From: Actinomycetota bacterium
GTDB taxonomy: Bacteria; Actinomycetota; Acidimicrobiia; Spongiisociales; UBA4744
Assembly (NCBI GenBank): GCA_013152275.1
Contig: JAADGS010000032.1
Location: forward strand, 1-43,925
Direction of reading: 5' to 3'
DNA length: 43,925 nucleotides
Shown here: positions 9,534-13,970 of the stretch, one piece after another
Layout: each line of letters begins with the position of its first letter
How positions within the stretch are numbered: the first letter of the stretch is position 1
Position numbers and translations under genes: made by a program
Notes under the pieces: generated by a model
Databases searched by the model: none
The model's input: only the letters and a program-made list of their open reading frames with translations
What the model was told of the DNA's origin: nothing

Positions 9534-9570
9534 AGAGTATGTCCTCTAATTATTAGAGTATAAACTCTAA
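9534..9570 (-). promoter_or_regulatory. TetR operator: overlapping inverted repeats
   Basis: Two overlapping perfect dyads lie immediately upstream of the tetR start. One is CTCTAAT-T-ATTAGAG at 9544-9558; the other is TTAGAGT-ATAA-ACTCTAA at 9553-9570. A further half-site TAGAG at 9534-9538 pairs with CTCTA at 9544-9548. This AT-rich cluster stands out strongly in GC-rich surroundings, and its position fits repression of the tetR-acg operon. Confidence 0.75.
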
Positions 9571-10065
9571 CAGGCGAGACTCAGGACATCGTTGGCGTTG
9601 TGAGTCAAGTTCTCGTCCGTATCGAGGTCGAGAGATGGTGCGGAGGGCGGCTGCGAGCGGTTCGGGGGTGTCGGCGCGTCGATGGTGGTTCTTCCAGAAG
9701 GGAACTCTCCGTACGATCGGATGTCGCCGTGCGTCCGGGAGAACTTCCGCGTGGGTGTCAGGATGTCTCACCCTTCGAGCCAGGTCGCGGAACGCGGACG
9801 ACCCCTTTCCTCCAATGACGCACCAGGACTCGGGCACACCCCTGTCGGCAACATGTATCGGGGCTTTCACTCTGCCGTCGCGGACAAACGCTTGAGATTT
9901 GGGCCCGATGTGTCGAATACCGGATGTGATGATTCCTACTGGATGGGTCGAAACAGGTGTGCCGTGTTCGTCTGAACACCAGGTGAAGATGGCAGGGCGA
10001 CCGTTTTGATCCGGTGGAAGTCCTGTCGGTACAGTCCACCCGCGACGACATCTTTGGAGAAGGCA
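9571..10065. other. 495-bp intergenic region without a recognised gene
   Basis: This lies between the divergent tetR and the pseudoprotease gene. Open frames exist in both directions (for example 9635-9895 on plus), but none resembles a known family, and arginine-rich low-complexity translation suggests they are not coding. A good ribosome site (GGAGAAGG) for the next gene sits at its right end. No hairpin terminator was identified. Confidence 0.4.
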
Positions 10066-11931
10066 ATGCCTCGCAGCATCTGGATCGCACTCGCCGGCCT
10101 CACACTCGTTCTGAGTGCCTGCAGTATCCAGATCAACACGACGACGACAACTACTTCCGATGACTCCGGCACGAGCGCGCCGACCGACACGAATGTGCCG
10201 TCCGGCAATGCCGCCGCCACCGTCCCCGGTGGTGGTGCCGCCGGCTCGACCGGCGGGGCCGTCGACGCCAACGTGCAAGACGCCCGTGCCGCCATCGTCC
10301 GTGTCGTTGCCGGACCTTTCAACGATCCGCCCGAAGACGAGGCGTTGAATCCCGTCGCCGCCGCCGCCACCGGGTTCTTCATCGGCGTCGGCGGAAACAT
10401 CCTCACCACGAATCGTGCCGTCGCCGGTGCCGAGAACATCGACGTGTATCTCGCCGACGATCCACAACCGCACGCTGCCACGGTGAGAGCCATCGACGAG
10501 TGCTCCAACCTTGCCGTCATGTACACCGACATCACGGACACCCCGTTTCTCGACAATGTGGGGGAACACGTCGCTGTCGGCACACACGTCAGCATCGGCG
10601 GGTATCCGCAGGACACGTCCGAGTACACCGTCACCGACGGGACCGTCACCGGTATCGACCTCAGGGGGCAAACCACCTGGTTCGACATCGACAGCGACGC
10701 CCTCTTGAGCCTCAGCGTGCCAACCCGGGCTGGAGAAGGCGGTGCACCCGTCATGATCGACGACGGTTCCGTTGTCGCCATCATCCTGCCCGTCGATGGC
10801 ACGGGCACCTTCGCCGTCCCCTTCTGGGCCATCGGCGCGGGGATCTCCGATCTCGAACTGGGCGGTCGCTCCGGTGGCAGCCCGCTGATCACCATCGGTC
10901 TCAACACCGTTCCCTATCGCGATCCGGCCAACACCTCCGGTCCCGACGGCCTCTGGGTACGTGCCGTGGTTCCAAACAGCGCCGCCGATCAGATCGCCCT
11001 TCAACCCGGCGACATCATCGTCTCCATCGACGGGCGTGAAACTGCCTCCGAACGCGGCTTCGACAACTACTGCATCGCCCTCCACGATCACAATGCCATC
11101 GAGCCCATCCCCATCGTCGTCTACAGGCCCGGCGACGACCTGTTCTACGAGGGGGTCCTTGGTACCGACGTGGTCCTCGGCTCCAACGGGCAACACTGGA
11201 GCAATGCCGGCGCGCCGCAGCCGACGGGTACAACGACGGTGACGAAGCCGCTGCCGCCTCCCACCACCACGACGGTGACGAAGCCGCTGCCGCCTCCCAC
11301 CACCACGACGTTGCCCACCTTCGGGCCGCCGCCCGGTAACGACAACGGCGGTTTCGACTGGATCAAGAACACCGGTTTCTACCTGCTGCCCGCAGAACCG
11401 TACCCGGCTGCCTACGACTCGGTGGACGACGCTCACCATGTCATCCACGCCGTGAAACCCGACGAATGGGGGCTCGAGCTCTCCGTCGATGCCACACCCA
11501 TCTACGGGTCACCCGACGGGCCGTACGGCACCGGCGTGCAGTTGTACGTGATCGGCTCCGACACCATCGGCGACTACACCACCGACTGGACCACCCCCGG
11601 CTACCAGATGGGTATCGCGCACAAGACTCCGTACGACTCATGGACCCCCGAAATGTGGGTCAGATCCCGCGACTGGTCCGACCGGTGCACGGAGGGAGGC
11701 ATCGGTGTCTACGACGACGGCACCTACAACGGCCTGTACCGATTCTGGCACCACTGCAAAACCGACTATCTCGATGCCGTCAAGCTGGACATTGCGGCAT
11801 GGAACGCCGACCACAGCGTCATCATCTGGATTTCCGGACTCATGTTCAGCGAACCGGACTACGACGCGTTCTCCAAAGCCCTCGACGAGCACACCTTCGA
11901 TACGGCTCGGCTTACCTCCGAAGGCTATTGA
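10066..11931 (+). CDS. Lipoprotein trypsin/PDZ pseudoprotease with Pro-Thr linker and C-terminal domain
   Basis: This 621-residue protein begins with a lipoprotein signal whose lipobox is LSAC (ATG 10066, GGAGAAGG upstream). A Thr-rich segment leads into an HtrA-like chymotrypsin fold. All three catalytic positions are changed: the His of TNNHVVAGA is Arg117 (TNRAVAGA), the Asp of DLAV is Asn148 (NLAV), and the Ser of GSSGGP is Gly225 (GEGGAP). A PDZ domain follows (LWVRAVVPNSAADQIALQPGDIIVSIDG is split here only by my reading). Then comes a repetitive Pro/Thr linker and a ~190-residue C-terminal domain I do not recognise, rich in Trp and Tyr. Surface-exposed, probably non-proteolytic, and a paralog of the next gene. 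Confidence 0.85.
   Translation: MPRSIWIALAGLTLVLSACSIQINTTTTTTSDDSGTSAPTDTNVPSGNAAATVPGGGAAGSTGGAVDANVQDARAAIVRVVAGPFNDPPEDEALNPVAAAATGFFIGVGGNILTTNRAVAGAENIDVYLADDPQPHAATVRAIDECSNLAVMYTDITDTPFLDNVGEHVAVGTHVSIGGYPQDTSEYTVTDGTVTGIDLRGQTTWFDIDSDALLSLSVPTRAGEGGAPVMIDDGSVVAIILPVDGTGTFAVPFWAIGAGISDLELGGRSGGSPLITIGLNTVPYRDPANTSGPDGLWVRAVVPNSAADQIALQPGDIIVSIDGRETASERGFDNYCIALHDHNAIEPIPIVVYRPGDDLFYEGVLGTDVVLGSNGQHWSNAGAPQPTGTTTVTKPLPPPTTTTVTKPLPPPTTTTLPTFGPPPGNDNGGFDWIKNTGFYLLPAEPYPAAYDSVDDAHHVIHAVKPDEWGLELSVDATPIYGSPDGPYGTGVQLYVIGSDTIGDYTTDWTTPGYQMGIAHKTPYDSWTPEMWVRSRDWSDRCTEGGIGVYDDGTYNGLYRFWHHCKTDYLDAVKLDIAAWNADHSVIIWISGLMFSEPDYDAFSKALDEHTFDTARLTSEGY
11233..11304 (+). repeat. 36-bp tandem repeat encoding the Pro-Thr linker
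   Basis: Two identical 36-bp units (starts at 11233 and 11269) encode TTTVTKPLPPPT twice. This is an in-frame duplication in the linker between the PDZ and C-terminal domains. Such linkers span the cell wall in actinobacterial surface proteins and vary in length by slippage. Confidence 0.8.
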
Positions 11932-12275
11932 TACCGTCATGATGGTGTATGAGATGGACATGTCCTCGTACTCGAGAGCAGGTTTGCGTCTCGCTACACC
12001 GACGCGACCGCCAAAGGATCGACAAGTTCTCCCAGCCGCACGACCGTCCATCGGTGCGACGATCATCGACCGGCAGATTCGTCCGCGGAACGACACAAAG
12101 GCGGGTGTCGCGGGTGTCCTCGATACTCCGGCGAGAACCCCGTTGTCTGCCCACACCGCATCCGTCGTGAGCGGCGGTCGCCTGCTGTCGGGGATCGATC
12201 ACGAAGCCAGGATCCGGCACACCGGCAAAGGTATGGTGCTGCAACCACGGAACAGTATCTGACAAGGAGAGTGAT
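11932..12275. other. 344-bp spacer between the two protease-like genes
   Basis: No gene or known RNA was recognised. Overlapping plus-strand frames run through it but lack similarity or composition typical of protein. It ends with AAGGAGAG just before ATG 12276. Whether it contains a separate promoter for the active protease is not clear from the sequence. Confidence 0.4.
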
Positions 12276-13727
12276 ATGCGGATCAGGAAACTACATCTCG
12301 CGCTGATGGCCGTGGCGCTTGTCGCCGCCTCCTGTAGCGCCGAATTCAGCATCGGGGACAACCTGGACGACACGTCCGCCGATGGTGGAGGACAGGCAGT
12401 CGACAGTCTGGACCGTGTCCAGGACGCGGTCGTACGCATCGTCGCACATGGCAGTTTCGTGGAACCGGGCGAAGGCACCATGTACAACACGGCAGGATCC
12501 GGCTCCGGGTTCATCGTTGACGAGTCCGGCATTGCCGTCACCAACAACCACGTGGTCGCCGGTGCAGCCTTCTTGGACGTGTTCGTGAATGGGGAGGTCG
12601 AGCCTCGCAACGCCAAGGTCCTCGGTGTATCCGAATGCTCCGACCTGGCCGTCATCGATATCGACGGTGAGGGGTATGCGTATCTCGAGTGGTCCAGCGA
12701 TCCGATCGTGGCCGGCGAGAAGATCTACGCTGCGGGGTTCCCGCTCGGTTCCGCCGAGTACACACTGCTGGACGGGATCGTCTCCAAGGCGAAAGCGGAT
12801 GGCGAGTCCGACTGGTCGTCGGTCGATCATGTGATCGAGCATTCCGCGGACACGCTTCCCGGCTCATCGGGCGGTCCAATCGTCACCGAGAACGGCAACA
12901 TAGTTGCCGTCAACTACGCCGGCGACTCTGCCGGCCAATCGTACGCGATCGGCCGTGACGAGGCGCTCTCCGTTCTCGATCAACTCAAAGCCGGCGAGAA
13001 TGTCACCTCCCTCGGCATCAACGGGCAGGCGATCAGCCAGGACGGCGTGTCCGGCGTCTTCGTCAACTCGGTCGTCTCCGGCAGCCCCGCAGGAAACGCC
13101 GGTGTCAGACCCGGCGATATCGTCACCCTCATCGAAGGGATCGTCCCTGCCACCGACGGCACCATGGCCGACTACTGCGACGTGCTTCGCAGCCGCAACG
13201 CCACCGATGCGATCTCCATCGAGGTGTACCGGCCCGACACGGACCTGTTCTACGAAGGTGTCCTCAACTCGGGTGAGAAACTCGCCGCCGAGGATGTTCC
13301 CGTAACGAACCCCCCGGCCACGGAGCCCACGGCGGCTGCATCACCGAGTCAGGACGACGTGTACGAGTACCTGCAGCTCTGGCCCGGCACCTGCTTCGAC
13401 GACGAAGGGATCGACCTCGACGCCGGCTACATCACACCCGTGGACTGTAACCAGGCACACGACAATGAGGTGATCGCCATCATCCAGTTCGATTCTTCCC
13501 GCCCGTGGCCTGGCGCCGACACGCTCCAAGAAGAATCGGACACAGAGTGCGCCGGTTCCGTCTTCGAAGACTTCGTTGGCGTTCCCTATGACGACTCGGC
13601 ACTGTACGTCGAATCGATCCCTGCCCCCCGGGGCGACTGGGACTCAGGCATGGCCTATGCCATCTGCGTCGCCTACGACGTGGACTGGGATCCCATCACC
13701 GGCAGTGTCTACCAGTCCGGCTACTAG
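12276..13727 (+). CDS. HtrA-like lipoprotein serine protease with PDZ and Septum_form-like domain
   Basis: This 483-residue protein has a lipoprotein signal with a VAASC lipobox and an intact trypsin-like triad: His92 in TNNHVVAGA, Asp123 in CSDLAVIDID, Ser198 in GSSGGP. A PDZ domain follows (GVFVNSVVSGSPAGNAG, RPGDIVTLIEG). After a short Pro/Ala/Thr linker, the last ~125 residues resemble the actinobacterial septum-formation domain: WPGTCF, VDCNQAHDNEV, PWPGADTL, TECAG, YAICVAYD, with four cysteines. It likely acts outside the membrane in protein quality control or cleavage of envelope proteins. It shares with the upstream pseudoprotease the ECS and YC cysteine positions and the VYRP-DLFYEGVL end of the PDZ domain, so the two arose by duplication. 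Confidence 0.88.
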   Translation: MRIRKLHLALMAVALVAASCSAEFSIGDNLDDTSADGGGQAVDSLDRVQDAVVRIVAHGSFVEPGEGTMYNTAGSGSGFIVDESGIAVTNNHVVAGAAFLDVFVNGEVEPRNAKVLGVSECSDLAVIDIDGEGYAYLEWSSDPIVAGEKIYAAGFPLGSAEYTLLDGIVSKAKADGESDWSSVDHVIEHSADTLPGSSGGPIVTENGNIVAVNYAGDSAGQSYAIGRDEALSVLDQLKAGENVTSLGINGQAISQDGVSGVFVNSVVSGSPAGNAGVRPGDIVTLIEGIVPATDGTMADYCDVLRSRNATDAISIEVYRPDTDLFYEGVLNSGEKLAAEDVPVTNPPATEPTAAASPSQDDVYEYLQLWPGTCFDDEGIDLDAGYITPVDCNQAHDNEVIAIIQFDSSRPWPGADTLQEESDTECAGSVFEDFVGVPYDDSALYVESIPAPRGDWDSGMAYAICVAYDVDWDPITGSVYQSGY

Positions 13728-13750
13728 AACCCCCATCTGCCCTGAGAACA

Positions 13751-13776
13751 CGGGGGGCTCCCTCGGGAGCCCCCCG
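13751..13776 (+). terminator. Rho-independent-type hairpin after the protease gene
   Basis: A perfect 12-bp stem (CGGGGGGCTCCC / GGGAGCCCCCCG) with a two-base centre lies 24 bases past the stop at 13727. No run of T follows, which is common for actinobacterial terminators. It could serve both directions, since the helicase gene converges on it. Confidence 0.75.
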
Positions 13777-13970
13777 GTCCGTTCGTGCAGCATCCAACTC
13801 ACAGGTCACGCTATCTCGGCATCCGGAGAAGCCGGCCCGGATCGGCAGGCCGGTCGCCCACGATCGGCGAGAGTGCCGGGCTCCCGTATCACGGCGCCGC
13901 CGAGTTCGTTCCTCACCAAGCCTGCAAACGGTGGTATCAACCCTGTCGGTGATTCGGCGCCGGCGGGGTG

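Follow-up and report, generated by a model that had tools for sequence, protein, structure and literature searches.

The upstream gene of a tandem pair in the window (the whole 43,925-nucleotide stretch that was analysed) encodes an HtrA-like lipoprotein, P0001, which is supported on sequence grounds as a retained, non-catalytic pseudoprotease. We think it probable that P0001 belongs to a small dead subfamily of HtrA lipoproteins, with two members in this genome, whose function resides in a conserved C-terminal domain. P0001 is encoded on the plus strand at positions 10066 to 11931 by an open frame of 621 codons, and a good Shine-Dalgarno sequence, GGAGAAGG, lies 5′ of the ATG at 10066. The codon of the lipobox cysteine (Cys19 of LSAC) is at 10120–10122, followed by a degenerate trypsin-like domain (residues about 69 to 265; 10270–10860), a Pfam PDZ domain (residues about 270 to 366; 10873–11163) and a C-terminal domain with a predicted Mog1/PsbP/LpqN-like fold and the conserved Cys541 and Cys564 (11350–11928). 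The succession of Trypsin_2 and PDZ, both above the Pfam cut-off, places the 621-aa protein in the HtrA/Do family by descent. The fold modelled with AlphaFold2 is also that of HtrA, and HtrA structures match it at Z about 25, although the alignment behind the protease part was built from active relatives, which biases the model towards the active fold.

The downstream gene, P0002 (12276–13727, plus strand), encodes a 483-aa lipoprotein HtrA with an intact triad, composed of His92 (codon 12549–12551), Asp123 (12642–12644) and Ser198 (12867–12869), and its ATG at 12276 is also preceded by a good Shine-Dalgarno sequence, AAGGAGAG. Pfam identified Trypsin_2 and PDZ in both proteins and a Septum_form domain, at 13383–13667, in P0002 only. 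In the BLASTP alignment of P0001 with P0002 (32% identity over 332 residues, E 1e-41), the triad motifs are unambiguously paired (LTTNRAVAG with VTNNHVVAG, ECSNLAV with ECSDLAV, and AGEGGAPV with PGSSGGPI). Arg117 of P0001 (10414–10416) stands at the position of the catalytic His, Asn148 (10507–10509) at that of the Asp, and Gly225 (10738–10740; GEGGAP for GNSGGP) at that of the Ser, which agrees with the residue numbers given in the first-pass annotation. Its description of neighbouring lipoprotein HtrA paralogs, the upstream one devoid of the triad, was likewise borne out, as both reading frames, both lipoboxes and the shared Trypsin_2 and PDZ domains are present; so are the parts that it had listed as retained in P0001, namely the PDZ domain, the lipobox cysteine (Cys19) and a pair of cysteines common to the whole family (C146 and C336). 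The His-Asp-Ser triad of an active HtrA/Do protease (S1C) is thus found in P0002 and not in P0001, and because the nucleophile and the general base are absent, P0001 is predicted to be incapable of proteolysis.

Of the 49 family members that were aligned, which come from the order and the class and include P0002, 46 have an intact triad, and the replacement in P0001 is therefore not a chance feature. The three members that deviate are P0001, a third copy from the window's own genome, and a protein of a class relative (L099, G230:C156:11088-12050), in which Thr replaces the catalytic Ser (EPGATGGP) and whose branch is long; this last protein has perhaps lost activity separately, or perhaps uses Thr as a nucleophile as in MamO. 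In the order search, a homologue was present in 32 of 138 genomes, with more than one copy only in the window's genome. Most relatives consist of protease, PDZ and a C-terminal domain that matches residues 488 to 607 of P0001. The relatives from genus g40 (L068, L069 and L070) carry the LpqN/PsbP-like domain and then a Septum_form-like domain in a single chain. Three Chloroflexi relatives (L107, L110 and L116) carry three tandem copies of the LpqN/PsbP-like domain, and in L110 an SH3-like domain lies further along.

This survey bears on the C-terminal domains of the pair, which the first-pass annotation had described as different. They do differ in that Septum_form occurs in P0002 only, but the domain of P0001 is the family norm, and it is P0002 that does not have it. 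In the tree of the protease and PDZ parts, P0002 groups with the g40 relatives (support 96/88) and yet is without their LpqN/PsbP-like domain. The difference in the tails would therefore mainly reflect the loss or replacement of this domain in P0002 and its retention in P0001. A recent origin of P0001 by duplication of P0002 was rejected, given that the trees place the two apart, although the long branches leave it unsure where the dead clade attaches at depth.

The third copy is unlinked to the pair (G000:C18:98346-100220, minus strand; L027/L096) and is hereafter called the C18 copy. It is 49% identical to P0001 over the full length, C-terminal domain included, and its triad positions are occupied by His, Asp and Phe, the Ser nucleophile being absent. 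The two proteins share a His216-to-Leu change at a near-invariant active-site position and an Ala at position 227, two residues after the Ser position, where the family has Gly. They form one clade in the protease and PDZ tree (100/97) as well as in the C-terminal tree (100/99). The C18 copy is, on these phylogenetic grounds, the true sister of P0001, and we infer that catalysis had already been lost in the ancestor of both, with the His and Asp of P0001 disappearing later. An orthologue of P0001 with an intact triad, which the first-pass annotation had named as evidence against its proposal, was not found, the nearest relative being the His/Asp/Phe protein. Roughly 1,000 genomes from the order, the class and the phylum, a second order draw included, yielded no further member of the dead clade, in searches that, like the genus search, covered part of the known species and scored few candidates per genome; nor was one detected when GTDB was scanned with short peptide patterns of the two proteins, or in viral contigs scanned with them. 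The C18 copy stands without an active protease neighbour, and the congener G001 yielded only distant homologues of the gene that does neighbour it.

The dead pair shows an inverted pattern of conservation. P0001 and the C18 copy are 39% identical in the protease and PDZ parts and 69% identical in the C-terminal domain, and in none of 861 pairs of active proteins was the C-terminal domain the more alike of the two. In the protease tree the dead copies sit on end branches of 3.87 and 2.02 changes per column, whereas in the C-terminal tree these branches measure 0.25 and 0.19. The pN/pS ratio of the dead pair is 0.77 (0.60–0.98) for the protease domain, as against 0.24–0.60 for the protease domains of active pairs, and 0.39 (0.29–0.52) for the C-terminal domain; these values are rough, as synonymous sites are near saturation and they come from one comparison of two dead sequences in a single genome. 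Relaxed selection, which had been named in advance as an argument against a selected function, therefore applies to the protease part and not to the C-terminal domain. Because of the inverted conservation, it looks as if the protein, once catalysis was lost, was put to a new use that depends mainly on its C-terminal domain, while selection on the protease part became weaker.

Two other explanations could be offered for this pattern. One is that P0001 is a decaying paralogue with no function, as might be suspected from a protease pN/pS near 0.8 and from the retention of only 38 of 65 near-invariant protease and PDZ positions. Such decay, however, is difficult to reconcile with an intact frame of 621 codons that has a good start site and a lipobox, with a second full-length dead copy, and with a C-terminal domain that is as strongly conserved as the identity and pN/pS values given above indicate. 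We regard it as very improbable, and the earlier view that P0001 was retained rather than simply left to decay is upheld by the same observations. The other explanation accepts that P0001 is dead and retained and attributes the inverted conservation to gene conversion between the two C-terminal domains instead of to constraint. Identical residues of the dead pair are indeed encoded by the same codon more often than expected by chance in the C-terminal domain (z 3.4), with no such excess in the protease or PDZ domain. The C-terminal dS is nevertheless still about 0.85, with a dN/dS of 0.27, no sharp breakpoint was found along the dead pair, and the conserved domains of active pairs show a similar same-codon excess (z up to 3.45). 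An old gene conversion may have contributed to the pattern, but we consider it quite improbable as the source, and favour constraint on the C-terminal domain of a retained pseudoprotease.

The C-terminal domain of P0001 has no Pfam match and no sequence match in the PDB, and just 1 of 17 C-terminal domains of relatives matches PsbP in Pfam (E 0.23). Modelled alone with AlphaFold2, the domain reached a pLDDT of 85 and a pTM of 0.82, and the top structural matches to the model (Foldseek, VIA-align 2) were PsbP, Mog1, LpqN and MTC28, at Z 8–10 and about 10% identity. By predicted fold, the domain is LpqN/PsbP/Mog1-like, which does not assign a function.

P0001 and P0002 have the same orientation and are separated by 344 bp, and a promoter and terminator scan of the pair gave no evidence for one operon. 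Directly after P0002, at 13752–13775 of the window, is a GC-rich self-complementary hairpin, GGGGGGCTCCCTCGGGAGCCCCCC, without a T run. The stretch from 9549 to 13887 is absent from the same TetR/DEAD-helicase junction (L184) of G001, the one congener compared, which has no copy of the pair: its TetR and DEAD-helicase genes, about 88% identical to those of the window at the DNA level, lie about 335 bp apart, as against 4.3 kb, pair included, in the window. The pair was either gained in the window's lineage or lost in G001. The pair-less junction (about 1076–1412 of L184) contains a short ORF, part of which is hydrophobic and resembles a membrane segment. A mobile element was rejected, there being no tRNA, no notable flanking repeats and a G+C content like that of the surroundings. 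The genus, order, class and phylum searches, with the coverage given above, found the tandem pair in the window's genome only.

These observations are relevant to the function that the first-pass annotation had proposed for P0001, that of a regulator, decoy or substrate adaptor for P0002. In a broader form of this proposal, a dedicated regulator, adaptor or dominant-negative partner would act perhaps by forming mixed trimers with P0002, or perhaps by using its PDZ and C-terminal domains to present substrates. The tandem, co-oriented lipoprotein genes with related protease and PDZ parts fit such a role, and the two proteins jointly hold both of the C-terminal domains that the g40 relatives have in one chain; moreover, the dead HtrA MamO activates proteolysis by MamE (PMC4794232). 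We think that a dedicated partnership is nonetheless unlikely. The gap and the scan described above do not point to one operon, the pair is found in none of the other genomes searched, the sister C18 copy, unlinked to the pair, stands without an active neighbour, and P0001 does not come out of the trees as a duplicate of P0002. Furthermore, the protease part, which would provide the interface of a mixed trimer, is the least constrained.

The likely history of P0001 as a retained pseudoprotease begins with an HtrA built like most of the family, from a lipobox, a trypsin fold, a PDZ domain and a Mog1/PsbP/LpqN-like domain, that would have lost its Ser nucleophile. The dead gene would then have duplicated, one copy, now on C18, keeping the His and Asp and the other, P0001, losing both. 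No longer needed for catalysis, the trypsin-like and PDZ parts would have drifted and would probably form a platform that is tethered to the membrane and possibly oligomeric, and the LpqN/PsbP-like domain may bind a ligand or a protein partner on the outer side of the membrane. Tentatively, and with some doubt, we propose a wider scheme for a lineage-specific pseudo-HtrA subfamily: a single genome would show the stepwise loss of the triad (first Ser, and afterwards His and Asp), the dead protease would have turned into a scaffold, selection would have shifted to the LpqN/PsbP-like domain, and the functions of a single chain would have been divided between the subfamily and the active neighbour, which lost that domain.

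If this is true, the significance would be threefold. Dead HtrA paralogues with a role are already known from magnetosomes, and P0001 would represent an independent origin in an unrelated lineage. The intermediate (H/D/F) within the same genome and the measurable shift of constraint from a catalytic to an accessory domain would make the route from enzyme to pseudoenzyme testable. Finally, attention would be drawn to the unstudied C-terminal domain of the family as a functional part on its own.

Among known systems, the active HtrA lipoproteins with a C-terminal LpqN/PsbP-like domain, such as L104 (JAHEDK010000010.1), have the lipobox, Trypsin_2, PDZ and C-terminal domain arranged as in P0001, together with the two family cysteines and the C-terminal cysteine pair. 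Unlike P0001, they have an intact triad and a protease part that is more conserved than the C-terminal domain, and they occur as a single copy in every order relative searched. With the LpqN, MTC28, PsbP and Mog1 proteins, the likeness is one of predicted C-terminal fold only, the domain of P0001 having no sequence-family match. A further parallel is MamO of magnetotactic bacteria, a dead HtrA which, like P0001, is a degenerate protease in a genome with an active HtrA and has been re-used non-catalytically (PMC4794232); several independent origins have been reported for dead HtrAs of this type (PMC4794232). One of the structures matched by P0001 is the solved protease domain of MamO (5hma, Z 23.3), and the matches of P0001 listed at E up to 1 do not include the NCBIfam MamO model, NF040961. 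MamO keeps the His and Asp, has Thr for Ser, and possesses a metal site and a C-terminal TauE transporter domain. P0001, in contrast, has lost all three triad residues and is a lipoprotein, with a predicted soluble LpqN/PsbP-like fold in place of the TauE domain.
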